The translations under genes and the position numbers were made by a program. Shown piece after piece: positions 2,469-18,732 of a stretch of 22,136 bases of DNA. Source of the stretch: Candidatus Schekmanbacteria bacterium (GTDB lineage: Bacteria > CSSED10-310 > JACPHN01); assembly GCA_016188575.1 (NCBI GenBank), contig JACPHN010000143.1:1-22136 (forward strand). The letters run 5' to 3'. A model generated the notes under the pieces. It was not told where the DNA came from. It worked only from the letters and a program-made list of their open reading frames with translations, and did not search any database. Positions within the stretch are counted from its first letter, which is position 1. The number at the start of each line of letters is the position of its first letter.

Positions 2469-3539
2469 CTATGGGTGGCCCCCGCTGACGACGACGAAGC
2501 TGCCGGGGAACGCGCTCCAGCTCTGGCTCACATTGCCCTGGCGGTTGCTGCCGACGTACTGGCTCTGTCCGGGGCGGATCTCGATGGTCACCATACCGGC
2601 GCTGCCATAGGACAGGGATCCGGCGTGGACGGCGGCGGCACAGATCGACGAGTCGTCGGTGTAGATGTCGGTGCCGTAAATGGGCCCGCCGATGTCCTTG
2701 GGACAGCAGAAGGTGAAATGCTCCCCGTTCCTGCCGCGCAGGGACGTTGCCGTGGTGCCATTCGCGACAGGGTTGCTGCACTCGCCGCCGGGCATGACTA
2801 TCGCTGCCGAGCCGGTGACCGCCGAGCCGCAGCGGAACCGGACATGATAGTCCAGGCACCCTCCGTTGTTCTCGGCGTTGAGACACCGGCCGCCCGTGGC
2901 GAGGTCGCAGACGTAGCTCTGGCCAGTTTGCCGCCAGTCGCGCCCGTCGTGAGCGCAACACTCGATCTCCGAGGGGTTACATTTCGCATCGACAGCATAT
3001 CTGTCCCGGGTTTCGTGGTCGCCCGAGGCATCCGGGGCATCCGTATTGAACCAGTCTGTCCACTCTGGACCGCGTGGACCGCAGGGAGTCGCGCCTCCGC
3101 CGGTCACGGGCGGAGGGGGCGGCGGCGGAGGCGCGGCGCCTGCCATCATCCGCTGCAGCGTCTCCCGCTCGGCGCCCGGCATTCCGGAATCGCTCGTGCC
3201 CTCGGTGGCCACCACGATGTCGACCACCTCCTTGTCGCCCACGGTCACTTCGCAGAAGATCGACGCCGAGTGCGGTCCTTTGTCGCCGTAGGAGCCGTTT
3301 CCGAGCTCGCCCCAGTTGGAATAGCCGGCAGCGCGCAGCGCAGCGCTGGCACGTTGCAGGCACTCCGCGTGCGAGATGGCCAGGATCTGTTGACCGCGCG
3401 ACATCGCCGGGCCGGCCCAAGCCGACGCGGCATGACCCAGCGCCACGGCCACCGCGATGCAAAGCCCCAACGACAGGCACTTGCCCCGCTCGCTCTTGAT
3501 CCGGCCGCCGTGAGCGTCTCGCGTAGATGTTCTTGCCAA
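2469..3539 (-). CDS. Secreted WxxW-LCCL domain protein
   Basis: A signal peptide (about residues 1-42, ending near 'SAWAG') indicates export. Residues about 50-132 form a small domain I do not recognise, followed by an eight-proline linker (137-144). Residues about 153-237 match the WxxW domain known from CILP and gel-forming mucins: W160-T-D-W, then W-F-N-T-D, a G-D-H-E-T turn and paired cysteines to 'CLDYHVRFRC'. Residues about 269-350 form an LCCL domain, with the diagnostic 'GTDIYTDDSSIC' followed by 'AAAVHAG' (about 289-307). Both are extracellular, disulfide-rich modules; LCCL is linked to binding lipid or glycan-like ligands in animals and protists. The start is a TTG at 3539, supported by GGAGG six bases upstream at 3546-3550. 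It lies 149 bp downstream of the winged-helix gene and could be transcribed with it. Function is unknown; a surface adhesion or binding role is inference. Confidence 0.87.
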   Translation of the reverse strand: MARTSTRDAHGGRIKSERGKCLSLGLCIAVAVALGHAASAWAGPAMSRGQQILAISHAECLQRASAALRAAGYSNWGELGNGSYGDKGPHSASIFCEVTVGDKEVVDIVVATEGTSDSGMPGAERETLQRMMAGAAPPPPPPPPVTGGGATPCGPRGPEWTDWFNTDAPDASGDHETRDRYAVDAKCNPSEIECCAHDGRDWRQTGQSYVCDLATGGRCLNAENNGGCLDYHVRFRCGSAVTGSAAIVMPGGECSNPVANGTTATSLRGRNGEHFTFCCPKDIGGPIYGTDIYTDDSSICAAAVHAGSLSYGSAGMVTIEIRPGQSQYVGSNRQGNVSQSWSAFPGSFVVVSGGHP

Positions 3540-3688: not shown

Positions 3689-4402
3689 TCACGATTGCGA
3701 CGCGTCCCCGCCGTCCTCCGCGTCCCGGCGCGGTGCGGGCCCGGAGGTATCGTCCCTTCTCCAGCCGGGTACGGGTGCCGTGGTTGCGCCCGACGGCCGC
3801 TGCACGGGTTCCTGACCCGAGGCGCTGGAATCGACCGCCGCCTGCTCGCCCGCGGCCTCCGCAGCGGCCTCCGTCGCCCGCGACTCCACCCGCCAGCGCG
3901 GCCGTCTCGCCGTTGTCACGCCGGATCCGCGTGCCACGAGCTCACCCTCCGGCCGGGCTGGCGCCACGGGCGCTGCCACCGGCGCCGGGTCCGGAATCTG
4001 CCCCGCCAGGGGTGCCGCCTCCGCCGCCGCCCCCAGAGCCTGCGGTGCGCCCTGCCGCTGCCCCGCCGCCGCCACAGCCGGGAAGCGCGCCGGGTCCAGG
4101 ATGCCGTGAAACTCGTAAACGAGGGTGCCGCTGGCTCCCACATCCACCCCCACGAAGCCCTTTTCCACCAACCTGGAAAGGAGCTCCTCCGCTTCGCTCA
4201 TCGACAGCGACGTGCCCAGCGCCACCTCGGCAACGCTCAGGGTGCCCCCCTTGGCGACCGCGAGCTTCAAAATCTGCTTCTCCTTCTCAACTGCCGTTGC
4301 CTCCGGCGGCCGTCGTTTTCTCATTTTCGCCTCATCCTCCTCGAACACCAGCTCCTGCGCGTAGCGCACGATCGATCCCAGCAGTCTTCGCGTTCGTCCC
4401 AT
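3689..4402 (-). CDS. Winged-helix protein with N-terminal FEE motif and Ala/Pro-rich tail
   Basis: The 237-aa protein begins with a short amphipathic segment carrying 'AQELVFEEDE' (about residues 15-24). The same motif occurs in the kinase and coiled-coil proteins of this cluster. Residues about 38-101 look like a winged helix: helix 'KQILKLAVAKGG', a turn 'TLSVAEVALGTSLS', a recognition-like helix 'SEAEELLSRLVEKGFV' and a beta wing 'GTLVYEFHG'. The rest (about 105-237) is low-complexity Ala/Pro/Arg/Gly and probably disordered. Such domains bind DNA or act as protein-protein adaptors; I cannot tell which. It is the last gene of the ABC/VWA/PP2C/kinase operon, 54 bp after the kinase stop. The start is an ATG at 4402 with only a weak ribosome binding site. 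Confidence 0.8.
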   Translation of the reverse strand: MGRTRRLLGSIVRYAQELVFEEDEAKMRKRRPPEATAVEKEKQILKLAVAKGGTLSVAEVALGTSLSMSEAEELLSRLVEKGFVGVDVGASGTLVYEFHGILDPARFPAVAAAGQRQGAPQALGAAAEAAPLAGQIPDPAPVAAPVAPARPEGELVARGSGVTTARRPRWRVESRATEAAAEAAGEQAAVDSSASGQEPVQRPSGATTAPVPGWRRDDTSGPAPRRDAEDGGDASQS

Positions 4403-4456
4403 TCTTGTGTCGCCGCCTTTTATCGTGGTTGGGCTGCGGTCCGGATCCCGCGCCGG

Positions 4457-5713
4457 CTAGACGTCCTCGTACAAGAAGTCGCGGATTCGCCTCCTTAGCC
4501 CTGCCAGGAAAGGTCCTTTCCGGGGTGCCGCGGGGGCTGCCGCCGTTGCCGGCGCGGGTAGCGCCACCGTCTGCTCGGCTTCCTCGAAAATCAGATTGCT
4601 GATGCGCGCCCACGCTCCGGCCCCGCCCGTGCGGACCCTGACCGCGGGCGGCGGCGTGCCGGCAATTATCCGGGGAGCTGCCGCGGTCGCGCCGGCACTT
4701 CCCGCCGACACGACCCTGGCGATCACCGACTCATAACAGGGCACCGGTTGCACGTCCTGGCCGATCACCAGCCAGCGCATGACATCGGCTGCCGCCGTGA
4801 TCTTCGCAACTGCCCCGATGTGCCCGGGATCGCTGCGGCACGCCTCGGCCAACAGCTCCGCCATCTGCCTCACGTGCTCCTGTTTTGCCCTCAGACCGCG
4901 ACGCAACACGGCGGATTCTTCCGGGCTCTCGTAGTCCGCGCGCGTCAGGATCAGACGCTTGTCTCCCGAGAGCTCCTTCCACGCTTCCCGATCGATCACG
5001 CTGAGTTGAAAGAGAATGCTGAGCAGCGAGAAGTCGTCGATCGTCCTGGCGAAAAGGGTCGGGGACCGCCGCGGGTGTTGGTAATCCGCCAGCCCGATCT
5101 CGCTGGCGTCCTTTCCCGCCAGCGCCGGAACGAACATTCCGTCGTAATCGATCAGCACGACGCGATTGTCGTCGGTCACGAGGATGTTTCCCTCTTGCAG
5201 ATCTCCGTGGCCCATGTTCCAGTCTTGCAGCATACGCACTGCACTGAACAGGCTTCCCGCGACGTGGGCGGCGCAGTCGAGCTTGCCGTCATCTTCCAGA
5301 TCCTGGGCGATCGCCTGATCGAGTTGAACACCGCATCCCCACTCCATGACCACGACCGGATACGTCCGGGAGCCGACCTGGATTCCCTCCTCAACATATT
5401 GAAAGTCGACCATGAACGGAAATTTTGTGATCTGAAGCGTCTCGTGCAGCGCTCGGTAGCGGTCCGCGCGACCGGGCGCACCGCTTGTGAAGACCTTGAG
5501 GGCGTACTGGTTTCCCTCCTCGTCCTGATATCGGAACACTGCCCCGGCGCCGCCCACCGACATGAAAGGCGACCCGCGCCGATTGAGAAAGATCTGCATC
5601 GACTCCCGCCGAAAGAACGGGATCCTCACGTTTGCGCGGTCCTTCACGGCCTCCAGATAGGCGCGCAGCGGCGGATAGGTCGACTGCGTCCCGCCCCGAG
5701 CTCCGTCAGGCAT
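4457..5713 (-). CDS. Hanks-type protein kinase of a TerY-P-like (VWA/PP2C/kinase) module
   Basis: This is a predicted cytoplasmic Ser/Thr-type kinase. Numbered from the ATG at 5713 (418 aa), the Gly-rich loop 'GGAGAVF' is near 54-60, the ATP-binding Lys is K73 ('YALKVF'), the catalytic loop is 'HGDLQEGN' (169-176, D171 and N176), and the DFG position reads D-Y-D (189-191) in 'LIDYDGMFVP'. The HGD and DYDGMF forms fit the kinase family paired with TerY-like VWA and PP2C proteins. A linker contains 'ISNLIFEEAE' (about 371-380), and the last residues are 'RIRDFLYEDV'. Both match the motif shared within the cluster. An ATG nine bases earlier (5722) is possible. I prefer 5713 because AGGA lies eight bases upstream; it overlaps the PP2C stop by eight bases, suggesting coupled translation. 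The substrate is unknown. Confidence 0.9.
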   Translation of the reverse strand: MPDGARGGTQSTYPPLRAYLEAVKDRANVRIPFFRRESMQIFLNRRGSPFMSVGGAGAVFRYQDEEGNQYALKVFTSGAPGRADRYRALHETLQITKFPFMVDFQYVEEGIQVGSRTYPVVVMEWGCGVQLDQAIAQDLEDDGKLDCAAHVAGSLFSAVRMLQDWNMGHGDLQEGNILVTDDNRVVLIDYDGMFVPALAGKDASEIGLADYQHPRRSPTLFARTIDDFSLLSILFQLSVIDREAWKELSGDKRLILTRADYESPEESAVLRRGLRAKQEHVRQMAELLAEACRSDPGHIGAVAKITAAADVMRWLVIGQDVQPVPCYESVIARVVSAGSAGATAAAPRIIAGTPPPAVRVRTGGAGAWARISNLIFEEAEQTVALPAPATAAAPAAPRKGPFLAGLRRRIRDFLYEDV

Positions 5714-6464
5714 CGCCGCCATCCTGGATCAGGACGATAGAAACATCGTCGTTTTTCATGCCATGGTCGCGGCGAAGCTCGGCGACGAGAGCGGCGAAAC
5801 GCGCTTCTTCCTCGCACTCGAGCAGCCGGCGAAGCAGCTCGCCGCTCTGGCGACATGCCACCTTCCGCACCACGAGCTCCGCAAAGGCGTCGGTGGCCGC
5901 GAGCAGCGTGCAGGTCCCGCGCACGGGCGAGCGGGCGTTTTGCCTCCTGTACGGAGTGCGCTCCTGCAACTTCGCGGACGAGCGAATCAGGTTCGGCGTG
6001 TTACCGAAGTCCGCGGCCGAAACGCAAGGAAAGGCAAGCACGCACGAGCCGTCGGCGTCAAGCGCAATCAAACACGCGTCCCCCACGGCCGCCATCGTCA
6101 GCGCATACGATCGTTCACCACCTCGACCGGCGTCCTGCACCAGCTCGACACGCGCCGCCAGCAGCGTCGCGAAGCTGCCCTCCGTCAAGAATTTCCGCAG
6201 CGCGGTGTGACGCGAGAGGTCCGGAGAGAAGGTCGCGCGTGCGAGCTCCAGCACCGCATCGAAGCTCTCCAGCGCGCAATCGAGGTGTTCCCCGAAGGTT
6301 GCAGCGAGGTGAGCCGACCAGCCCTTCGAAAACACCCCTGTGCTGGCGCCATCGGCCAGCACGATTCCCAGCTCCCCGGGCGAGCGGCGGCGGAGGTCTA
6401 CCGAATCCTCGTTCTCATGGCGCGCGGCGCCTGCCTTGCTGGCCTGAAACGTGCGCACCTGCAT
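5706..6464 (-). CDS. PP2C-family protein phosphatase
   Basis: The 252-aa protein probably removes phosphate from Ser/Thr residues of targets of the adjacent kinase. PP2C metal-site motifs are visible in order: 'ENED' (about 17-20), 'LADGAS' (about 36-41), 'AVGDACLIALD' (about 126-136, G128-D129), 'AATDAF' (189-194, with TDA where the family normally has TDG) and 'KNDDVSIVLI' (237-246, D239/D240). All metal-binding acidic residues therefore appear to be present. It starts two bases after the VWA stop codon and overlaps the kinase start, so the VWA, phosphatase and kinase genes are tightly coupled. No membrane segment or signal peptide is seen; cytoplasmic action is expected. It may act as a counter-enzyme of the kinase or on VWA-bound phosphoproteins. 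Confidence 0.9.
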   Translation of the reverse strand: MQVRTFQASKAGAARHENEDSVDLRRRSPGELGIVLADGASTGVFSKGWSAHLAATFGEHLDCALESFDAVLELARATFSPDLSRHTALRKFLTEGSFATLLAARVELVQDAGRGGERSYALTMAAVGDACLIALDADGSCVLAFPCVSAADFGNTPNLIRSSAKLQERTPYRRQNARSPVRGTCTLLAATDAFAELVVRKVACRQSGELLRRLLECEEEARFAALVAELRRDHGMKNDDVSIVLIQDGGDA

Positions 6465-6466
6465 GC

Positions 6467-7246
6467 TCAGCCTCGCAGCCGCGTGCCGATGTCGAAGAAC
6501 TTGCTCAGATCTTTCGGCTGAGCGTTGAACATGTACCCCCGGGCGCCGACCTCGACGAATGGGTAGATCTCCGTCGCGCGCCGGAAAAACGGATCGGGTA
6601 GCACGCTGGACATCGCAAACAGCGCGAGCTGGTGCTCCGTGCCCGCGGTCAGCCGCGCGGGGAAGGCGAGCGTTTCCTCGTCCTTGCCCGAGATATGGAT
6701 GTTCAGCACGATTGCGCTCCCGTCTGCGGTGCAGACGCCTGACAAGATCTCCTTTGCGATGCCTGTCGGATTCTCTGTCGTCCAGACGCCGTCACTGACG
6801 TGGATGAGCACGGGGGGAAACGAACCTCCGTGCTGGATTATCCACTGCGTAAGCGCCTTCTTCGCCAGTCTGAACCCCGCCGCCATATCGGTGTTGACCT
6901 TCGCGGTTGGATCCTCGAGCCACATGGGCACCTTGACTTCGATCCCGTCGATTTCTGACCTGGTGAACCGCAGCGGGTGATACGCGAGATCCACCACGGA
7001 CTGGATGGGCACGAGCGCGGTGGCGGAATCGCCGTAGCCGAGCACGCCAATGTGAAAATACGCGCGGATCTCGTCCCCTTTTTCACAAGACAGGATCACC
7101 TGGTCGATGCTCTCGTTGCACAGGCGGGTCAGGTATTGGCCCTTGGTGAGACCAGTGCTGCCGTAGCGCTCTGACATCGAGTATGAGCAATCAAACAGGA
7201 AGAGGATCAGCGCGGGATTGCTACGGCTGATTTCGGCCTCATACAT
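6467..7246 (-). CDS. TerY-like von Willebrand factor A domain protein
   Basis: A single VWA domain fills the 259-aa protein. The metal-ion-dependent adhesion site (MIDAS) is complete: D19-C-S21-Y-S23, T119 in 'VNTDMAAGF' and D152 in 'IHVSDGVWT'. VWA proteins of the TerY type bind partner proteins through this metal site. With a PP2C phosphatase and a kinase they make up the TerY-P triad known from tellurite-resistance-associated and other stress loci. The start is the ATG at 7246, with AAGGAGA eight bases upstream; upstream in-frame codons are rejected. It is cytoplasmic, as no signal peptide is seen. A 174-bp gap and a promoter-like site separate it from the coiled-coil gene, so the triad plus winged-helix gene may be expressed independently of the transporter. 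Confidence 0.9.
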   Translation of the reverse strand: MYEAEISRSNPALILFLFDCSYSMSERYGSTGLTKGQYLTRLCNESIDQVILSCEKGDEIRAYFHIGVLGYGDSATALVPIQSVVDLAYHPLRFTRSEIDGIEVKVPMWLEDPTAKVNTDMAAGFRLAKKALTQWIIQHGGSFPPVLIHVSDGVWTTENPTGIAKEILSGVCTADGSAIVLNIHISGKDEETLAFPARLTAGTEHQLALFAMSSVLPDPFFRRATEIYPFVEVGARGYMFNAQPKDLSKFFDIGTRLRG

Positions 7247-7353
7247 GCCGGGCTCTCCTTCTCGGGTCGTGGTGTCGACGTGAACGCGTGCCGCGAGCAA
7301 CGATCTGCTTGCGGGCAGGAGCAGACGTCATTCGGCGGGTCCTTCGGTAGGGA

Positions 7354-7382
7354 ATCGTAGGCTCCCCCGCGACTCGTTTCAA
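7354..7382 (-). promoter_or_regulatory. Candidate internal promoter ahead of VWA-PP2C-kinase-winged helix genes
   Basis: On the minus strand, TTGAAA (7382-7377, five of six consensus bases) is followed by a 17-bp spacer and TACGAT (7359-7354, four of six). The site lies in the only large gap inside the operon, about 100 nt before the VWA ATG. It would allow separate control of the signalling half. Evidence is consensus match and location only. Confidence 0.45.
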
Positions 7383-7420
7383 CCGCCGCGCCGGGCCATG
7401 ACGCCTGCTCCCACCGCTGG

Positions 7421-8083
7421 TCACGGACGTCGAAGGTAGGTCGACAACACTGCGAGCTCGCCGGCGATGTCGGCAAAAGCGCGCGCAAATCCGTGCTTGA
7501 GGTCCTCCATCTGGGCATTCTTTTCCGCGACGCGGGCGTCGATGTCCTGTTTCTCCCGCTCCGCGGCTCCCAGCTCCGCACGCATCTGCTCGAGTAGCCG
7601 CTTCTTGTCCTCGATCACCGCGCCGAGCGCGGACTGGCGAGCCTGGGCGTCTTTGAGGTTCTCGTCGCGGAACCTCAGCAGCGCGCCGGCAAACTTCTTC
7701 CGCTCTTCGTTCAGGATTGCCGCGTAGTGGTCATGGTGCCGCAGGAGCTCATCCTTGCTGACGCGCATCACGCCAGCCGAGTCGAGCGCTTTCTGGATCG
7801 CCGTCTCCGCGGAGCTTCCGGCGCGCACCTGGGCGGCGAAAATCTGGTGGAGCTCGTAAAAGTCGAAGCCGGGAAGGTTGCTGCGGTCGATTGCCTGTTT
7901 CAGTGAGTCGGCGAACAGCTTGTGCGCGCCGTCAGACGATACGACTTCGGGGGCCGCCGCGGCGCCGGCCGCGGTGCCGCTCGCACTCGGATCCGGTGTC
8001 GCCACGTGGGTCACTGCCAGCGCGGGTTCGGCCTGCTCGTTTTCCTCGAATACCAGGTCGCGTAGTCGGTCGAGCAATCCCAC
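7421..8083 (-). CDS. Coiled-coil protein with N-terminal FEE motif
   Basis: I do not recognise a named family for this 220-aa protein. It opens directly with an amphipathic segment 'LRDLVFEENE' (residues 7-16), the motif shared with the kinase and winged-helix proteins. A flexible Ala/Thr/Pro/Ser-rich linker (about 17-50) follows, then a helical region (about 53-120) with 'GFDFYEL', then a long charged coiled coil (about 124-197) and a short hydrophobic end. The start is a GTG at 8083, supported by GAGGAG seven bases upstream. The long open frame upstream of it is antisense-like and overlaps the ATPase gene. It lies 25 bp after the ABC ATPase stop, so it is positioned as a possible cytoplasmic link between the transporter and the VWA/PP2C/kinase set. 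That bridging role is inference. Confidence 0.82.
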   Translation of the reverse strand: MGLLDRLRDLVFEENEQAEPALAVTHVATPDPSASGTAAGAAAAPEVVSSDGAHKLFADSLKQAIDRSNLPGFDFYELHQIFAAQVRAGSSAETAIQKALDSAGVMRVSKDELLRHHDHYAAILNEERKKFAGALLRFRDENLKDAQARQSALGAVIEDKKRLLEQMRAELGAAEREKQDIDARVAEKNAQMEDLKHGFARAFADIAGELAVLSTYLRRP

Positions 8084-8108
8084 TGTCCAGCTCCTCGCTC
8101 CCGGTCTG

Positions 8109-8978
8109 TCACATCGTCTTGAAGGTAGCTTCGATGTCGTTGACGAGCTCGTGGAAGACCGGGAGGGCCTTGGGGTTGTCGCTCCACGCAATCCCACTCG
8201 CCAGCAGGTCGAGCTCGCGAACGACGTGCGCCGCCCGTTGCCGCCGTCCGCTTTCATCAAAAGCGCGGCCGAGCAGGTGCACCCGATCACAAATCGCCAC
8301 CACGGAACGAATGTCGTGCGAGATGATGAGCAGCGTGTTGAGCTCGTGCGCGTTCGATACTTCGCGCACGAAATCGGTGACCGCGCCGATCGCGTTGGGG
8401 TCCAGGCCGGAGAACGGCTCGTCCATCACGAGGAAAAACCGATTCACCATCAACTGCTGCAGAATCGCCACGCGCTGCCGCTGCCCCCCCGACAACTGGG
8501 ATGGCCAGAAGCGGGCGCGGTCGTCGAGCCGAAACCGCCCTAGCAACTCCATGGCCTGTTGGCGCGCGAGCCGGCCGGCCATCCCCGATGCTCGGCCCGC
8601 CAGACTCAGATTCTGCAGCACCGTCAGATGCGCAAACAGCGGGTAGTGCTGAGCCACGACGCCGACCATTCCCGGCCGCACCGGCTGCATCGTCCCGGTG
8701 TCGTCTACTGCCACCCGGACGCCGCCGCGATCGGCCCTGGACAGCCCTGCGATGACCCGCAATAGCTGCGTCTTGCCGACGCCGCTCGGACCAATGATGC
8801 CGCGAATCTGCCCGCGCACGCTGCCGCGCTGCCGCAAGTCCCGCACCACCAGGTCCACGCCCTCGAGAATCGGCTGGCCCCCGAGCGCGAGGTGCACGTC
8901 AAGCACTTCGAGGATCGCATTCTGCTCGAAGTAGTCCGCAGCGCTGCGCGCCGGCGTGTTCCCCGGTGCCCCGCTCAC
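8109..8978 (-). CDS. ABC transporter ATP-binding protein
   Basis: This is the motor subunit of the adjacent uptake system. Numbered from the GTG at 8978 (289 aa): Walker A 'GPSGVGKT' (63-70), Q-loop 'VVAQH' (Q110), signature 'LSGGQ' (162-166), Walker B 'FFLVMDE' (181-187), D-loop 'SGLD' and switch His H221 ('IISHD'). A complete set of motifs indicates an active ATPase. The C-terminal about 50 residues go beyond the nucleotide-binding domain; I do not recognise them. The GTG at 8978 is preferred because the permease stop, embedded in GGTGA, lies seven bases upstream and can serve as ribosome binding site. An ATG at 9008 would overlap the permease gene. The permease type suggests a NitT/TauT-like importer, but the substrate cannot be read from the sequence. 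Confidence 0.93.
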   Translation of the reverse strand: MSGAPGNTPARSAADYFEQNAILEVLDVHLALGGQPILEGVDLVVRDLRQRGSVRGQIRGIIGPSGVGKTQLLRVIAGLSRADRGGVRVAVDDTGTMQPVRPGMVGVVAQHYPLFAHLTVLQNLSLAGRASGMAGRLARQQAMELLGRFRLDDRARFWPSQLSGGQRQRVAILQQLMVNRFFLVMDEPFSGLDPNAIGAVTDFVREVSNAHELNTLLIISHDIRSVVAICDRVHLLGRAFDESGRRQRAAHVVRELDLLASGIAWSDNPKALPVFHELVNDIEATFKTM

Positions 8979-8985
8979 GCGCCGC

Positions 8986-9810
8986 TCACCGGGAGCCCGC
9001 GCTCGCATAGGGCGCCGCGAGGCGCTGAAGCCACTTGAGCACGATGTCTTGGACCACCCCGATAGTGAGGATGCAAAACATGATCGCCAGTGCCTTCCCG
9101 CGATCGAAATGCTTGATGCTGTCCCACAGAATATCCCCGACCCCACCCGTCTTGACGATCGTCTCTACGGCCGGAATCATGGTCCACCCGATCGCGGCGT
9201 TTTGGCGCAACGCGTCGAGGGTCTCGGCAATCGTGCCGCGCACGACCACGTGCCAGAAAACGCCCCATGACGAGAGCCCCAGCGAGCGCGCGTAGTCGAA
9301 ATTGGCCGCCGGAATTTCCGTCACGATGCTGTACATGGACGTCACGAAGAAGACCGTGATGCCGAACGTCAGCAATGCCAGCTTGAGCGAAAAGCCGAGG
9401 CCGAAGGTCACGATGAAGATGAAGTAGATCCCGAGGAGGCCGAGAAATCGGCCCTTTGAAATGATGAAGGATGCCGGTCTGAAGAGCGGCACGGAAGCCA
9501 GGTAGGTCAGTGCGAGAGTCAACGCCGTGGCCAGGCCGATGGCACTCAGGCTCAGGCGGAGGCTCTCCAGGATGTCGCGGGAGAAGCGGTCGACCAGGAA
9601 GAGCTTCCTCAGGCTCAGCAAGACCTCGCTGAACGGGCGGAAGGCCGGGCCTATGTTCCCTTGCCAGATGGCCACGAGCATCAAGAGATACAGGAGAACC
9701 AGCGCCCAACGCGCGCCTGCCGCCAGGGACCGGTTGAGCTCGAGCAAGTCGAGCAACGGTCTCCTCATGCCCTGGATATCTGACTGCTTGATGTGCTGTT
9801 CCGTATGCAC
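8986..9810 (-). CDS. ABC transporter permease (NitT/TauT-like, BPD_transp_1 fold)
   Basis: The 274-aa integral membrane protein has about six hydrophobic segments (about 34-50, 82-108, 118-140, 142-163, 206-224 and 238-258). A cytoplasmic EAA-type loop (about 168-192, 'AANFDYARSLGLSSWGVFW') is the docking site for the ATPase. Layout and loop resemble permeases of the nitrate/taurine/sulfonate group. The start is a GTG at 9810, four bases after the stop of the OmpA-fused binding protein; an ATG at 9768 is an alternative. Only one permease gene is present, so it would act as a homodimer. It sits between two binding-protein genes and the ATPase gene and should form the importer with them. Confidence 0.9.
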   Translation of the reverse strand: MHTEQHIKQSDIQGMRRPLLDLLELNRSLAAGARWALVLLYLLMLVAIWQGNIGPAFRPFSEVLLSLRKLFLVDRFSRDILESLRLSLSAIGLATALTLALTYLASVPLFRPASFIISKGRFLGLLGIYFIFIVTFGLGFSLKLALLTFGITVFFVTSMYSIVTEIPAANFDYARSLGLSSWGVFWHVVVRGTIAETLDALRQNAAIGWTMIPAVETIVKTGGVGDILWDSIKHFDRGKALAIMFCILTIGVVQDIVLKWLQRLAAPYASAGSR

Positions 9811-9814
9811 GCTG

Positions 9815-11746
9815 TTACTCGGTGGCCTGGCCTTCGCGGCGGAAGATCTTGAGCACGACGCGCCTGTTCACCGCCATCTTCTCGGCGGTGTGCGCACCAG
9901 TCGCGGGATCGTAGTCGGCCACTGCCAGCTCCTGCTCGCCGTGCGCGACGACGGTAGCGCGATTCTCGGGAAATGAAGTCCCCGCCCGCGTCTTGAGCCA
10001 CGCGGCCACCGCCTCGCCGCGCCGCTGCGAGAGCACCAAGTTGGCGTCATCATTGCCTTGCGAGTCGGTATGGCCGTGTATTTCCACGCGCGCATTGGCC
10101 GCGATGACGAGCTGCTCGAGCGCCTCCTCCAGGACGGCGGTGGCTGCAGGCGTGAACAGTGCTTTGCCGCTTTCGAAGCTGATGCTGTACGAAAGCTCCC
10201 CCAACTGCGTGCCCTTCTCGGCGCTCGCCGTAAACTGGGGCAGATACCCCTGCGCTGCCGTGAGCGCCGGAAACGCCTTCTGCGTCGCGAGCAAGTACTC
10301 GGGGTTGAAGACAGCTCGCCACTCCGGGTAGGCGTCCATGAAGGCCGGGTAGTAGCTCATGGCCAGCGTTGCGAAGCGGTTGTAGACGACCTCGCCGATG
10401 TCCACGCTGCCATCGAGACCGAAGTAGGCCAGATTGCGCGGCAGGTTGCTGACAGAAGAACCGCCGATCTCCACCTTCAGCCCCATCGTATCGGTCACGG
10501 TCACGACATCGAAATACCGGTACCAGTAATCCGGCGTTTCCGAGTCGAATATCTCGTGGGCGTATCGAGCGGCGTCCCAGCGCCGGTCTGCCGCCGATTT
10601 CGCCGGCATGGCGCCGGATTTCAGCTTCTCGTCCGCTTCATTGATCTCATCGGCCGCCTGGAACAGGGCGGCAAGCATACTGGTAATGACCTGTTTGTTC
10701 TGCTCGTCCCATTGCTTGAGCCCGACAATGTACTGAGGCATCTGATTGCTGTATTCCCGCGTGGACGCAATCGACACCACGCCGCCCCTCTTGTTGGCAA
10801 TGTTCTTGTCGCCGGGTGTCCAGGTCACGGCTCCGTTGACGGCGATGCGGCCCTTGCTCCCCTTCCTTACCAGTTGCCCGCGGCTGTCCTTGCCATCGGC
10901 CGTAAACACGCGTTCGACCTCACGTCCCGCGATGAGCGTGTCGGCCGCCTCGAGGAAACTGGCAGTTTTCATGAAATTCAGCGCCTCCGGGTCGAACTGC
11001 GTTTCGTCGCTGTTGAACGGGACGCGGTTCTGGGCGCACCAAAAGATCATCACGTTCCAGTCGCCGTCCGCCGGGACGCCTGCCACGAGGCCGCCCCGGG
11101 CGCTCTGTGGATTCTCCTTCCACCGCGGCGGCCCGAGGAACTTGTCCTCACCCGCGCTGAAGCCGCCAAATCCGATGATCTCGGCCGAGTAGCCTGGATC
11201 GACCGCGCGCAAAGCCTTGTTGGTGTCGTTCAATACCCAGCCGCCCGCGTCACCCATGATCGTGAAAAAATGGGCTCCGGTTCGTGGCGCCGGATTACCG
11301 CTCTTGAGCTCCGCGGCAAACGCCCTGAGCTCCGCGATCTGCAGCGGAATCTCCTCGATGCGCTTGAACTTCAAGCTGACTCCACGTTGCGCAAACAAGC
11401 TGTCGGCCGCCGTCATCTTGCCCTTGTTGGCCAACGCCCAGGCCTGGTGGGTATTCCACGTCCAGTGGGCGAGCCTGATTTCCTTCACTCCCGGGAGCAG
11501 CGGGATATCCTCGAAGGTGGGAACTCGGGCGCCTGTGCTGGGCGGCGGGACCGCGGGCGCCCGGTTTTCCGTTGGAACAGCAGTTACCATTCGCGCCGCA
11601 GGCACGGTCGGCGCCGCAGTGGCCTCCGGCGGCCGGTCCACGACCTTATCGCCGCTGCCAAAAAACATCCGCGAGACGAGCAGCGCCGAAAGGACGAAGA
11701 GCCCCGCGAAGAACAGCTTTGCAGAGGTCTTCATTCGCCTGGCCAC
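9815..11746 (-). CDS. Membrane-anchored ABC substrate-binding protein fused to an OmpA-like domain
   Basis: An N-terminal hydrophobic segment (about residues 11-29), with no lipobox or clear cleavage site, anchors the 643-aa protein. A Pro/Ala/Thr-rich linker (about 33-80) follows. Residues about 85-495 form a periplasmic substrate-binding domain with conserved stretches 'AHWTWNTHQAWA', 'GGLVAGVPADGDWN', 'VTWTPGD' and 'DYWYRYFDVVT'. Residues about 520-635 form an OmpA-like peptidoglycan-binding domain ('VEIHGHTDSQGND' near 555-567, 'LSQRRGEAVAAWL', 'NRR' near 627-629). The protein could therefore tether the importer to the cell wall. Fused binding-protein/OmpA proteins are known in databases as putative phosphate ABC transporter/OmpA family proteins, but the substrate is not established. 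The GTG at 11746 is chosen (GGAG nine bases upstream); an ATG at 11734 is also possible. The neighbouring gene encodes a paralogue without the OmpA part. Confidence 0.9.
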   Translation of the reverse strand: MARRMKTSAKLFFAGLFVLSALLVSRMFFGSGDKVVDRPPEATAAPTVPAARMVTAVPTENRAPAVPPPSTGARVPTFEDIPLLPGVKEIRLAHWTWNTHQAWALANKGKMTAADSLFAQRGVSLKFKRIEEIPLQIAELRAFAAELKSGNPAPRTGAHFFTIMGDAGGWVLNDTNKALRAVDPGYSAEIIGFGGFSAGEDKFLGPPRWKENPQSARGGLVAGVPADGDWNVMIFWCAQNRVPFNSDETQFDPEALNFMKTASFLEAADTLIAGREVERVFTADGKDSRGQLVRKGSKGRIAVNGAVTWTPGDKNIANKRGGVVSIASTREYSNQMPQYIVGLKQWDEQNKQVITSMLAALFQAADEINEADEKLKSGAMPAKSAADRRWDAARYAHEIFDSETPDYWYRYFDVVTVTDTMGLKVEIGGSSVSNLPRNLAYFGLDGSVDIGEVVYNRFATLAMSYYPAFMDAYPEWRAVFNPEYLLATQKAFPALTAAQGYLPQFTASAEKGTQLGELSYSISFESGKALFTPAATAVLEEALEQLVIAANARVEIHGHTDSQGNDDANLVLSQRRGEAVAAWLKTRAGTSFPENRATVVAHGEQELAVADYDPATGAHTAEKMAVNRRVVLKIFRREGQATE

Positions 11747-11781
11747 TGACTGATGCTCCGAGAACAGTTTGAAGTTGGGTC

Positions 11782-11796
11782 CGGGAGGGGCTCCCG
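11782..11796 (-). other. Short stem-loop between the two binding-protein genes
   Basis: CGGGAG and CTCCCG flank a three-base loop in the 81-bp gap. There is no T-run, so it is not a classical terminator. It could stabilise or stop part of the transcript so that the first binding protein is made in excess. The hairpin is seen; its role is inferred. Confidence 0.35.
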
Positions 11797-11827
11797 CCGC
11801 GGATCACTATGTTGACGCGAGCCGCGC

Positions 11828-13243
11828 TTAGCTCTTGATCAGCTCCGGATAGTTCTTCTTCACGCCCTGAACATAGACGGGGTTGAACACGGATGACCAT
11901 TCCGCGTACGATTCCATGAAATCCGGATAGTACTGCATCGCCAGCTTTGCGAACCGCTCATACATGATTCGCCCCTGGTTCTCACCGCCAGCGAGCCCGA
12001 AGTAGCGCAAGTTCTCCTCGAGATTGCTCACGGCAGAGCCGCCGATCTCGACCTGCAACCCCTGCTTGTCGGCAATCGTGACGACATCGAAGTATTTGTA
12101 CCAGTACTCCTGGTCTTCGGAGCCAAAGATCTGCTGCGCAAAACCCGCCGCGGTCCAGCGCACGTCGGCCGCAGCACGCGGCTGAATCGCGCCGCTCTTG
12201 AGCCCGGGCGCTGCCGCCTTGATTTGATCCGCTGCCGCAAAGACTGATGCCAGCATGCGAATGACGGCGCTTTGATTTCTATCGTTCCACTGTTTGAGCC
12301 CGACGATGTATTGCGGCATTTGCTCGGAGTACTCTCTCGTGGAAGCGATGGACACGAGCCCCCCGCGCTGGTCGGCAATGTTCTTGTCGCCAGGCGTCCA
12401 CGTTACTGAGCCGGTGATGGCGACAAATCCTCTCTCTCCCTTTTTTACCGTTTTGCCCTGAAAATCCTTGCCGTCTTCCTTGAAGGTGAGCTCTACGGGT
12501 TGCCCGGCGATGTAAACTTCCGCTGCCTTGATGTAGTTTTCGGTTTGCAGGAAGTTTAGCGCGCCCGGGTCGTAGAGCCGCTTGTCCGAGTTGAATGGCA
12601 CATCGTTCTGCACGCACCAGTAGATCATCACGTTCCAGTCGCCATCGGCCGGAACTCCTGCGACCAGTCCGCCGCGCGCCGCTTGCGGGTCTTGCTTCCA
12701 CGCGGGCGGGCCCATGAGCTTGTCTTCTCCGGCGCTGAAGCCGCCGAAGCCTACGATCTCCGCCTGGAATACGGGATCGACGCCTTTCAGCGCCTTGTTC
12801 GTGTCGTTGAGCACCCAACCGCTGGCATCGCCCATGATCGTGAAGAAGTGGACGCCGTCCGCCGGATTGGCTTCGCCGGCCTTGAACCCCTGCGCGAAAC
12901 TGACCAGGGCGTTGATCTGTACGGGGATGTCCTCTATGCGCACGAAGCCCATGCGGATTTTGTTTTTCGCAAAGAGCGAGTCCGGAGCGGTCTCCTTGCC
13001 GTGGTTTGCCAGCGCCCACGCCTGATGGGAGTTCCACGTCCAGTGGCCGAGTCGGAGCGCGATCTCGCCCGCCGCTTCCCGGTCAATCGCCGGCGCTTCC
13101 ATTATCGTGGCGGGCGCCGGCCCGCCGGCGTTTTCGGACAGGAGCTTGTCAAGGATGCCGCCCGCCTGCAGCGCGACAATGACCAGCGCGGCTGCGATCA
13201 GCACACCGACAATCTTACCCGTTCTCCTGGATCGCTCTGCCAT
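11828..13243 (-). CDS. Membrane-anchored ABC substrate-binding protein (paralogue without OmpA domain)
   Basis: The 471-aa protein begins with an uncleaved-looking hydrophobic anchor (about residues 11-31) and then a binding domain aligned end to end with that of the next gene. Shared blocks include 'GHWTWNSHQAWALAN', 'HFFTIMGDASGWVLNDTNKA', 'GFGGFSAGEDK', 'GGLVAGVPADGDWNVMI' and 'VTWTPGDKNIA'. By eye most aligned positions are identical (not computed). It ends where the OmpA domain of its paralogue would begin. The ATG at 13243 has AGGAG six bases upstream. This is the first gene of the long operon, next to the candidate promoter at 13328-13356. Two binding proteins for one importer suggest either different ligands or a free and a wall-tethered form. 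The substrate is unknown. Confidence 0.9.
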   Translation of the reverse strand: MAERSRRTGKIVGVLIAAALVIVALQAGGILDKLLSENAGGPAPATIMEAPAIDREAAGEIALRLGHWTWNSHQAWALANHGKETAPDSLFAKNKIRMGFVRIEDIPVQINALVSFAQGFKAGEANPADGVHFFTIMGDASGWVLNDTNKALKGVDPVFQAEIVGFGGFSAGEDKLMGPPAWKQDPQAARGGLVAGVPADGDWNVMIYWCVQNDVPFNSDKRLYDPGALNFLQTENYIKAAEVYIAGQPVELTFKEDGKDFQGKTVKKGERGFVAITGSVTWTPGDKNIADQRGGLVSIASTREYSEQMPQYIVGLKQWNDRNQSAVIRMLASVFAAADQIKAAAPGLKSGAIQPRAAADVRWTAAGFAQQIFGSEDQEYWYKYFDVVTIADKQGLQVEIGGSAVSNLEENLRYFGLAGGENQGRIMYERFAKLAMQYYPDFMESYAEWSSVFNPVYVQGVKKNYPELIKS

Positions 13244-15693: not shown

Positions 15694-18600
15694 ATGGCCA
15701 TGGAGCTCTGTTTGTCAGCCGACTCTTCGCGTCTCGATCTGCCGTTCACGTCGATCGGCCCATATCGCATCCTCGCCGAGCTCGGCCGCGGCGGTATGGG
15801 TGCGGTCTACCGCGGCCTTCATCCGTCGCGCGAGGTGGAGGTCGCCATAAAGGTTGTGCGCGTCCCGGATCCGGGACTGCTTCGCAGTATTCGCCGCGAA
15901 ATCAGCGCCCTGACCCGGCTCCGACACCCGGGCATCGTTGCCGTGCGCGAAAGCGGCATTCAAGGCGGCATGCCCTGGTACGCGATGGATCTGGTTGCCG
16001 GAGAGCCGCTCGATCGCTACTGCCAGCGCCGGTGGAACCCGCAGTCGCAAGCCGCGGCCGCTGTGAACCGCGAGGCCTCGACGCTCATCTCTCCGGGTGA
16101 TGGAGAACAAACCGCCTTTTTCTCGCCGGCAACCAAACGGACCGGTGCCGCCCAAAGGCTTGTGATCGCTCCGGCCGCCATGCACCACGTGCTCACGGTC
16201 TTGCGCCGCCTCTGCGGGCCGCTCGCCTACCTCCACGGCGAGGGCATCGTCCACGGTGACCTCAAACCCGCGAATATCGTCGTCACCCCGGACGGCCTCC
16301 CGCTGCTTCTCGACTTCGGCATGGCCAGGCTCGTGCGCCGGCACGGCTCTGCGCTCGATAGCGGCACTCATGAGGCGCTCGACGTCGTCCCGCCCGGTGG
16401 GACTCTCCAGTATATCGCCCCCGAGCTGCTCCTCAACCTCCTTCCGGACGCCCGCACCGACATCTACGCATTTGGCTGCATTCTCTTCGAGCTCCTGACG
16501 GGGGAACCGCCGTTTTCGGGCAGGGGCCAGCAGGTAGCCTCTGCTCATCTGCGCCAGGAACCGCGGTCGTTGCTCGAAATTCTCCACGGGATTCCGGCGG
16601 AGCTTGCCAACCTCGTCGCTCGCCTGCTCGCCAAGCGCCCCGCCGATCGCATCGGCTACGCGGACATCATCGCCGCGAAACTGGGTGAGCTCGGCGGAGA
16701 GAACGGTGCCTGGCGCGACGCTCCTGCGCCCAGGACGTTCCTCTACCGGCCGGAGCTGCACGGTCGCGATTCTGCTCTCCGGCGCCTCGTTTGTCGTGTC
16801 GATCGCATCCTCGCGGATGAGCCGGGCGGCCTGCTGATGCTTCGCGGCGAGAGCGGCGTCGGCAAGACCCGCCTGATGGTGGAGCTGACCAGACTCGTCT
16901 CCAGCAAGGGCGCCTTGGTGCTTGCCGGCGAATGTCAGCCTGGCCGAGGTCGTGAGCTCCAGGGGGTGCGCCGGCTCCTGGAGGCCATCGCAGATCACTG
17001 CCGATCGCGAGGAGCCGACGCCGCCCGGGACATTCTTGGCGCGCGCGGGCGCTTGCTCGAACAGTATGAACCCTGCCTTCGCGGCTTGACCGGCCTCGAG
17101 GACTTTGCACCACCGGTGGAACTGCCCGCGACCGAGGCGCAGGTGCGCCTGTTCTCCTACCTGGCCGAGTGCCTGAGGCGGTTCGGGCAGTACGAGCGCA
17201 TCGTTCTGGTTATCGATGACCTGCAATGGGCCGATGAGCTGACCCTGGGCTTTCTGCGCTTTGCGCTGCAGGGTGGGCACCTCGCGTCACCGCCGCTGAT
17301 GATCATTGCCACCGTGCGCAGCGAGGAGGAAGGCGCCAGCGTTTCCGGGCTCGCGACGCTGCCGAACGTCGAGATAATTGAAATCGCGAGGCTCGATCAA
17401 GATGCGGTCCGCGCCCTGATTCGCGACATGCTCGACCGGCGCGCGGCTGACCCCGTGGTCGAAAACCTCGTTGTCGATCACTCCGAGGGCAATCCGTTTT
17501 TCGCGGCCGAGTACCTTTACGCCGCCGTTCAAGCCGGGCTGCTTGCGCGGGACGGTGCCGGCAGGTGGCTCCTGCGCACGCCAGACACCGGTGGCGCTGG
17601 GCTGCGGTCATTGGCGCTGCCGCGCAACCTCCGCGATGTCATTCTGCGCCGCCTGGATGGGCTGTCCGCGGCAGCTCGTGACCTCGTGGAGGCTGCCAAC
17701 GTGCTCGGGCGCGAGCTTCCCCTCGAGGTCCTCGAGGGCATGATTGGTCCGGACGCCGGCGATCTCTCCCCGGCGCTGCACGAGCTGCTGACGCGCCGCT
17801 TCCTCGAGGACACCGAGCGTGCGGATGTCCTGCGCTTCGGGCACGACAAGCTCCGCGAGGTCACCTGTGACGCGCTTGACCCGAACCGTCGCCGGCACCT
17901 GCATGAGCGCGCGGCGACCGCGCTCGAAGCGCTACCCATCGGCGCGGACGGCTACCGCTCCGCGGCGCGGCTGGCACACCATTGGGAGCAAGCCGGTGAC
18001 GCTCTGGCCGCCCAGCGCTACTACGTCCAGGCCGCGCGCGACGCCGCCAGGCTCTATGCGAATGAAGACGCGGCACAGTATTTCGAGCGCGTCTTGGCCC
18101 TGCAGACCGCCCCGACCGCCGCATCGGTGGTCTGGCGCTGCGAGCTCGGCCGCCTGCCCCGACGCATTCGCAAGGCGAGCGACGCTGCAAGCGCGTTTTC
18201 CGCGGCGCTGACAGAGGCCACCGCCCTTGGGGATGAGGAAGCCCAGATCCCCATCCTCACCGATCTCGGCCTCGTCTCTGAGGATATCGGTGACCTCGCT
18301 CAGGCCGAGGATTGGCTCAAGCGCGCACTCCTGCGTGCGACGCGTCACCACGATTGCATATCCGAGGCGAAAATTCTCGCCGCTCTGGGGCTTACTCTGC
18401 GCCGCCGGCACTGCCTCGACAGCGCGCGATCGACATTGCGGCTCGCACTTGAAACCGCGCAGTCCTGTGGAGAACGCAAGACCGAGGCCATCCCCGGTCG
18501 CACCTCGGATCCGTGGAGCGGGCCTCAGGCGATGTTGATCTCGCTGCTCACCACTACCAGGAAGCGTCGAGAATCGGCCTCGAGCTCGGCGATCCAGGTT

Positions 18601-18732
18601 TGGAGGTCGAGGCGCTCACCAACCTTGGCGTCGCCAGCAAGGAACGCCAGCGAGATGCCGCGGCAATTCGCCTGTCTGGCCAGGCCCTGGACAAAGCCCG
18701 CGAGATGGGAGACCGCCGCAAGGTGGGGCTGA
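15694..18732 (+). CDS. PknK-like protein kinase + AAA ATPase + TPR protein, N-terminal part (frameshifted)
   Basis: This is a large predicted cytoplasmic signalling protein. The kinase domain (about 21-335) has a Gly loop 'GRGGMGAVYRG', Lys K53 ('VAIKVV'), catalytic loop 'HGDLKPAN' (187-194, HGD rather than HRD), DFG (207-209) and 'APELL'. A Ser/Thr/Ala-rich insert of about 50 residues sits before the catalytic loop. An AAA_16/STAND-type ATPase follows, with Walker A 'GESGVGKT' (385-392) and Walker B 'VLVIDD' (504-509, then 'LQWAD'). TPR-like helices start near residue 780. The reading frame loses TPR character near position 18497: residues after about 935 ('PGRTSDPW...') are out of frame, and the true continuation is the frame from 18513 to 19316. 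The ATG at 15694 (or 15700) has no clear ribosome binding site. Such proteins usually sense a ligand through the ATPase/TPR part; the target is unknown. Confidence 0.85.
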   Translation: MAMELCLSADSSRLDLPFTSIGPYRILAELGRGGMGAVYRGLHPSREVEVAIKVVRVPDPGLLRSIRREISALTRLRHPGIVAVRESGIQGGMPWYAMDLVAGEPLDRYCQRRWNPQSQAAAAVNREASTLISPGDGEQTAFFSPATKRTGAAQRLVIAPAAMHHVLTVLRRLCGPLAYLHGEGIVHGDLKPANIVVTPDGLPLLLDFGMARLVRRHGSALDSGTHEALDVVPPGGTLQYIAPELLLNLLPDARTDIYAFGCILFELLTGEPPFSGRGQQVASAHLRQEPRSLLEILHGIPAELANLVARLLAKRPADRIGYADIIAAKLGELGGENGAWRDAPAPRTFLYRPELHGRDSALRRLVCRVDRILADEPGGLLMLRGESGVGKTRLMVELTRLVSSKGALVLAGECQPGRGRELQGVRRLLEAIADHCRSRGADAARDILGARGRLLEQYEPCLRGLTGLEDFAPPVELPATEAQVRLFSYLAECLRRFGQYERIVLVIDDLQWADELTLGFLRFALQGGHLASPPLMIIATVRSEEEGASVSGLATLPNVEIIEIARLDQDAVRALIRDMLDRRAADPVVENLVVDHSEGNPFFAAEYLYAAVQAGLLARDGAGRWLLRTPDTGGAGLRSLALPRNLRDVILRRLDGLSAAARDLVEAANVLGRELPLEVLEGMIGPDAGDLSPALHELLTRRFLEDTERADVLRFGHDKLREVTCDALDPNRRRHLHERAATALEALPIGADGYRSAARLAHHWEQAGDALAAQRYYVQAARDAARLYANEDAAQYFERVLALQTAPTAASVVWRCELGRLPRRIRKASDAASAFSAALTEATALGDEEAQIPILTDLGLVSEDIGDLAQAEDWLKRALLRATRHHDCISEAKILAALGLTLRRRHCLDSARSTLRLALETAQSCGERKTEAIPGRTSDPWSGPQAMLISLLTTTRKRRESASSSAIQVWRSRRSPTLASPARNASEMPRQFACLARPWTKPARWETAARWG

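Follow-up and report, generated by a model that had tools for sequence, protein, structure and literature searches.

An ABC importer with an OmpA-fused binding protein beside a TerY-P-type kinase/phosphatase module in one probable operon of a Candidatus Schekmanbacteria bacterium

TerY-P triads consist of a VWA protein, a PP2C phosphatase and a serine/threonine kinase (STK) (Anantharaman 2012, as cited in PMC11090510 and PMC4978471); a role of these triads in metal sensing is so far a hypothesis in the literature. Operons that combine PspA and AAA+ proteins with an ATP-binding cassette (ABC) ATPase, a permease and a PBPB-OmpA protein have been described by Ravi et al. (PMC11237479). In this work we analyzed a 22,136-bp window, which is an entire contig (JACPHN010000143.1, C255) of the 9.2-Mb draft genome (93.8% complete) of a Candidatus Schekmanbacteria bacterium (GCA_016188575.1). 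Nine minus-strand genes (3689-13243) carry an ABC importer with an OmpA-fused solute-binding protein (SBP) at their 5' end and a TerY-P triad with two partner proteins at their 3' end (Table 1). Each half is of a known kind, and the pairing, together with a helix motif that three of the encoded proteins have in common, is new as far as tested. Tentatively, and at slightly less than an even chance, we propose that the operon encodes an importer-coupled TerY-P phosphorylation switch for envelope sensing.

The gene order from 5' to 3' is SBP1, SBP2, permease, ATPase, coiled-coil protein (cc), VWA, PP2C, kinase and winged-helix protein (wh). The original prediction, a first reading of the DNA letters, had described nine same-strand genes with short gaps or overlaps; all nine open reading frames (ORFs) are present where it had placed them, and the gene identities it gave are supported, with the key motifs intact. 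SBP1 and SBP2 are separated by 81 bp, SBP2 and permease by 4 bp, permease and ATPase by 7 bp, ATPase and cc by 25 bp, and cc and VWA by 174 bp; VWA and PP2C are 2 bp apart, PP2C and kinase overlap by 17 bp, and kinase and wh are 54 bp apart. Apart from the 174-bp and 81-bp gaps the spacing is operon-like. Terminator-like sites are at chance level (7 observed vs. 7.2 expected), and none lies on the coding strand in the intergenic parts of the operon. The nine genes thus probably form a single operon, as predicted, and would be co-transcribed. A search against Rfam gave no match. An origin of the window DNA in contamination of the genome bin appears less likely: its GC content and its GC at third codon positions (GC3) are uniform and match the few other loci of the genome that were inspected, a pattern that contamination could give too.

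The triad is complete and apparently active. The VWA protein keeps an intact MIDAS motif (DxSxS...T...D, with DCSYS at 19, NTDM at 118 and VSDG at 150) and the kinase keeps its catalytic Lys, HGDLQEGN and DYDG. As in described triads, the three genes are adjacent in the order VWA, PP2C, kinase and match the PADLOC models TerY, PP2C and STK_OB. Because the STK_OB match spans positions 29-299 of the 562-position profile and ends with the kinase domain, and because the C-terminal tail carries no Pfam domain, neither an OB fold nor a zinc ribbon being recognized there, we classify it from its sequence as a broadly defined TerY-P triad, outside the described OB-fold and zinc-ribbon subtypes. It also differs from those triads in the helix motifs of its kinase tail, in its cc and wh partners, and in being joined to an ABC importer and not to restriction, secretion or Ter genes. 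TelA and TerD are absent from the window, as had been noticed before; TelA was not found anywhere in the source genome, and its one TerD-domain gene is isolated on a different contig. The earlier statement that such triads are known mainly near Ter genes is inexact, since they have also been reported alongside Type IV restriction (CoCoNuT) systems and as anti-phage modules that stand alone (PMC11090510). The latter report and the PADLOC matches raise the alternative of anti-phage defense, in which the importer complex would sense a perturbation of the envelope by phage and the TerY-P switch would trigger an abortive response. We regard this as improbable: no nuclease, HEPN or other effector was recognized in the operon by Pfam or PADLOC, the flanks consist of an LCCL-domain protein, an extracytoplasmic function (ECF) sigma factor, a PD40 protein and a separate STK/AAA/TPR protein, and the kinase has no recognized OB fold or zinc ribbon.

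A kinase-alignment scan of 84,980 species genomes gave at least 566 relatives in the stretches examined, and the best 76 loci were analyzed. Among the matches listed, the sole close relative is in Desulfococcaceae bacterium HSG9, where wh, cc, VWA, PP2C and kinase are contiguous with wh first (locus L036, 393-6302). The five families share 31-61% identity (51% for the kinase; the others in Table 1), and in a tree of 119 kinases made by a quick method the window and HSG9 kinases form one clade with support 100 and a long stem. HSG9 keeps the MIDAS, PP2C and kinase motifs, with the kinase HGD reading HND. Judged from this conserved gene content, wh-cc-VWA-PP2C-kinase is a real five-gene module, and cc and wh are to be counted with the triad and not with the importer because their HSG9 homologues are contiguous with VWA, PP2C and kinase. 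The winged-helix label itself comes from a weak family match (HTH_IclR, 21.7 bits with a cut-off of 22), and the same domain is conserved in HSG9. Since cc starts 25 bp after the ATPase gene and its HSG9 homologue lies within the triad module, cc would tie the two halves together. In HSG9 the module appears to be joined to the envelope differently: a putative membrane segment and FGE-sulfatase/DUF1566-like domains are appended to the kinase, and more kinase paralogues are present. Four near-identical HSG9 kinases (L036:3237-14077 and L037:8408-11092) have different FGE-sulfatase/DUF1566-like segments at their C-terminus, which looks like an ongoing diversification of the sensor end. A Melainabacteria locus (L047:8-1621, plus strand) is predicted to connect a TerY-P triad to the envelope as well, with a gene for a membrane segment plus OmpA 27 bp upstream of VWA-PP2C-kinase.

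The importer has two duplicate binding proteins, SBP1 and SBP2, with 61% identity over 42-468. The OmpA domain of SBP2 keeps the GHTD and LSQRR motifs (TD and R positions), the usual peptidoglycan-contact residues, and is predicted to bind peptidoglycan, in line with the earlier description of a wall-tethered importer. The Walker A/B, LSGGQ and H-loop motifs of the ATPase are intact, and the closest solved relatives of the permease are CmpB and a nitrate permease. Searches with the single proteins gave little: Pfam and NCBIfam had no match for SBP1, VWA or PP2C, PDB sequence searches with SBP1 and with VWA had none, tblastn of SBP1 vs. plasmids had none, and a domain-wide search found no permease relatives at E<=1e-20. 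An SBP alignment search of genome contigs and viral contigs also found no relatives, with search patterns that were too narrow. SBP1 itself has no OmpA domain; its best match in HSG9 is an OmpA-fused SBP (E 0.0035). A full-length SBP2 profile retrieved OmpA domains only; therefore an SBP-only bridging profile was built from the window, HSG9 and Vibrio SBPs together, and it detected an OmpA-fused SBP family in 20 of 386 genomes. Direct SBP similarity is weak, and an hhalign profile-profile alignment covers the OmpA part alone. The window SBPs are likely divergent members of this widespread NMT1-like OmpA-fused SBP family.

Two classes of clusters are seen in this family. The first has SBP-OmpA/VWA/SBP-OmpA, sometimes with XpaC/TelA/SBP/permease/ATPase (locus L155 is complete). 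In HSG9 the SBP-OmpA gene clusters with those for a VWA lipoprotein, another SBP-OmpA, an XpaC-like protein (possibly so; the label is our own reading, and Pfam gave no match), TelA and one more SBP; on Vibrio plasmids the same SBP-OmpA/TelA set occurs with permease and ATPase. These TelA-linked clusters (Vibrio plasmids, HSG9, G211) resemble the window in an SBP-OmpA with a similar N-terminal region, a NitT/TauT-like permease, an ATPase and an operon VWA, and differ in that their VWA is a putative periplasmic lipoprotein, that they contain no kinase or PP2C, and that TelA/XpaC-like genes are absent from the window. The second class has SBP-OmpA/permease/ATPase, sometimes with PspA and AAA+. 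Like the window, the PspA/AAA+ operons encode an OmpA-fused SBP together with a permease, an ATPase and cytoplasmic partners close to the membrane, and locus L160 of this type has two OmpA-SBPs; here PspA/Snf7 and AAA+ were not found by Pfam in the nine proteins and cc plus TerY-P stand in their place, the SBPs are strongly diverged and one of them has no OmpA. By gene content, OmpA-SBP importers are thus repeatedly linked to membrane-stress genes, either TelA/XpaC/VWA or PspA/AAA+. By analogy, these sister importers with cytoplasmic membrane-stress partners would favor the phosphorylation switch. They also bear on a plainer possibility, that the operon encodes an ordinary importer of a specific anion or small solute whose uptake is controlled post-translationally by kinase and PP2C, the wall tether merely positioning the SBP. 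The intact importer motifs and the relatedness to CmpB and nitrate permease fit such a function; the sister operons are tied to membrane-stress and not to catabolic genes, and simple uptake would not usually involve two SBPs plus a wall anchor, so that we give it a low probability. On large plasmids of several Vibrio species the TelA/XpaC/VWA/OmpA-SBP importer operon is conserved (L115; plasmid matches H3-H8 and H23-H28), and we found no paper naming it. Another contig of the source genome, C41 (L151:3423-8557, G000), has a partial set of the first class, encoding SBP-OmpA, a VWA lipoprotein, SBP-OmpA and an XpaC-like protein.

When the operon proteins were compared we observed a helix motif with the consensus LxDLVFEE, here called FEE. 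One copy each is found N-terminally in cc GLLDRLRDLVFEENE and wh SIVRYAQELVFEEDE, and the kinase tail has two copies (WARISNLIFEEAE and RRRIRDFLYEDV). Four copies in three operon proteins compare with 0.002 expected in shuffled proteins, a figure that overstates the evidence since the pattern was defined post hoc. A six-frame translation of the window has no further copy. Written as a degenerate DNA pattern, which is blind to the wh copy, the motif has five matches in the 9.2 Mb, three here and two identical copies elsewhere, and this near-absence from the rest of the genome is independent of the shuffling. In HSG9 the N-termini of cc and wh and the post-linker part of the kinase have short hydrophobic-basic helices of different sequence (MALFEKIRNTL, MSLMDKLNKALF and KKSFFSKLVTFF). 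This pattern suggests that the FEE helices dock on one shared partner, and it fits a docking sequence that changes in step within each genome. As a rival, the helices may be membrane or lipid anchors; their amphipathicity is moderate and singly not significant, and their net charge is low or acidic; lipid binding appears the less likely reading. The motif spans the cc-VWA gap and links cc, kinase and wh, and in this respect would favor the phosphorylation switch. The membership of cc and wh in the triad module, the published PspA-linked relatives of the importer (PMC11237479) and the shared helix motif are points beyond the original prediction.

In the proposed switch, SBP1 and SBP2 would be anchored in the inner membrane, with SBP2 also gripping peptidoglycan via OmpA, and both would serve the NitT/TauT-type permease and ATPase. 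The state of this complex, either solute occupancy or envelope strain, would be relayed to an assembly that cc, wh, VWA, PP2C and kinase form in the cytoplasm and that would control how far nearby proteins are phosphorylated, the probable targets being cc, wh or the ATPase. By docking on one common partner, the FEE helices in cc, in wh and in the kinase tail would keep the kinase in place.

Several results weigh against this proposal. The original prediction had named a gene-neighborhood search as its check, with a near-total lack of adjacency elsewhere as grounds for giving up the link, and the two halves are almost never adjacent elsewhere: none of the best 76 kinase loci has a detectable relative of the window permease or SBP domain (4 of the 76 have some ABC ATPase, the best case being parted from its triad by a regulator of its own), none of 17 SBP-OmpA regions has TerY-P genes at E<=1e-4, and in HSG9 the triad module and the SBP-OmpA/TelA cluster are on separate contigs. 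A recurring combination is therefore not supported, and the union is so far unique to the source genome. The HSG9 contig stops about 390 bp upstream of wh, which hides any importer linkage beyond its end; the best HSG9 relative of the window permease is weak (27 bits), with no close one. The 174-bp gap parts cc from VWA and contains a weak promoter-like site (7382-7354; 2 such sites in the region vs. 1.1 expected). No structural model stands behind the docking, the sole finished model, of SBP1 (AlphaFold, two sequences), having failed with a predicted local distance difference test (pLDDT) score of 34 and been discarded, and the post hoc choice of the FEE pattern counts here as well. Loci L047 and L103, both OmpA-only matches, are not importers and were rejected as importer-triad loci, as was L069 of Rokubacteria, where the importer 2 kb downstream of the triad is a different TOBE/SBP_bac_8 one with its own MerR/cupin regulator between.

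The strongest rival takes the halves for chance neighbors, a mobile TerY-P stress or anti-phage module having landed directly downstream of a lineage-native OmpA-SBP importer, so that the two would be at most co-transcribed and separate in function. The missing adjacency, the 174-bp gap and the stand-alone defense role of TerY-P-like modules (PMC11090510) all fit it. So does the phylum: OmpA-SBP clusters occur in G001, G002 and G003 and on contig C41, yet no TerY-P kinase was found in the seven phylum genomes compared besides the source genome. On the other side, cc, a triad-module gene, lies only 25 bp from the ATPase gene, no integrase or mobile-element gene is seen in the window, GC3 is even over operon and flanks, and the FEE motif connects cc, kinase and wh over the gap; we consider chance proximity possible and rather unlikely. 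In the literature we found no paper describing the pairing, the neighborhood tables of the founding TerY-P study being outside the comparison.

If the triad is indeed wired to a wall-tethered importer, its input would become definable through an SBP whose ligand can be tested, and if the docking is true, cc and wh would be candidate targets marked by a shared motif. Three stress modules (TelA, PspA/AAA+ and TerY-P) are linked to one kind of importer, and OmpA-SBP importers may therefore act as envelope sensors. A wider and doubtful generalization is that they are a general envelope-sensing front end with an exchangeable back end (TelA/XpaC/VWA, PspA/AAA+, or cc plus TerY-P), in which kinase, cc and wh would assemble via a system-specific FEE helix.

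Table 1. Genes and helix motifs of the operon
Feature	Position	Strand	Basis
SBP1, solute-binding protein with N-terminal membrane anchor, without OmpA	11828..13243	-	ORF; homology to SBP2
SBP2, same SBP domain plus C-terminal OmpA (residues about 524-611)	9815..11746	-	Pfam OmpA, 52 bits
Permease, NitT/TauT (nitrate/bicarbonate/taurine) type ABC importer	8986..9810	-	Pfam BPD_transp_1, 44.9 bits; SaoP/TauC-like
ABC importer ATPase	8109..8978 (start 8978 or 9008)	-	Pfam ABC_tran, 84.9 bits
cc, coiled-coil protein, N-terminal FEE-motif helix, conserved NLPGFDxYE core	7421..8083	-	38% identity over 81 amino acids to the HSG9 gene directly upstream of VWA
TerY-like VWA, MIDAS motif	6467..7246	-	PADLOC TerY, 168.7 bits; 61% identity to HSG9 VWA
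PP2C phosphatase, four metal-binding Asp motifs kept	5706..6464	-	PADLOC PP2C, 77.8 bits; 38% identity to HSG9
TerY-P-type kinase, linker with two FEE-like motifs	4457..5722	-	PADLOC STK_OB, 159.9 bits, kinase domain only
wh, small winged-helix protein, N-terminal FEE motif, low-complexity C-tail with PxW motifs	3689..4402	-	53% identity over 68 amino acids to the first HSG9 module gene
FEE motif in cc, core LRDLVFEE	8042..8065	-	Motif search
FEE motif 1 in kinase tail, core ISNLIFEE	4580..4603	-	Motif search
FEE-like motif 2 at kinase C-terminus, core IRDFLYED	4463..4486	-	Motif search
FEE motif in wh, core AQELVFEE	4337..4360	-	Motif search

The product of the gene next downstream of the operon (2469-3539, minus strand) combines LCCL and Mucin2_WxxW domains, which are better known in animals. 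On the opposite strand, the large STK/AAA_16/TPR protein (15694-18732, plus strand) is the second, unrelated kinase of the window. In the tails of TerY-P-type kinases (loci L036-L111) a PxW[LMIVR] motif, mostly LPxW[ML], follows the linker in 24 of 121 ORFs vs. 6.2 by shuffling; the HSG9 wh protein terminates in HLPDWMKKRKKNS, and the wh tail in the window has APVPGWRRDD.

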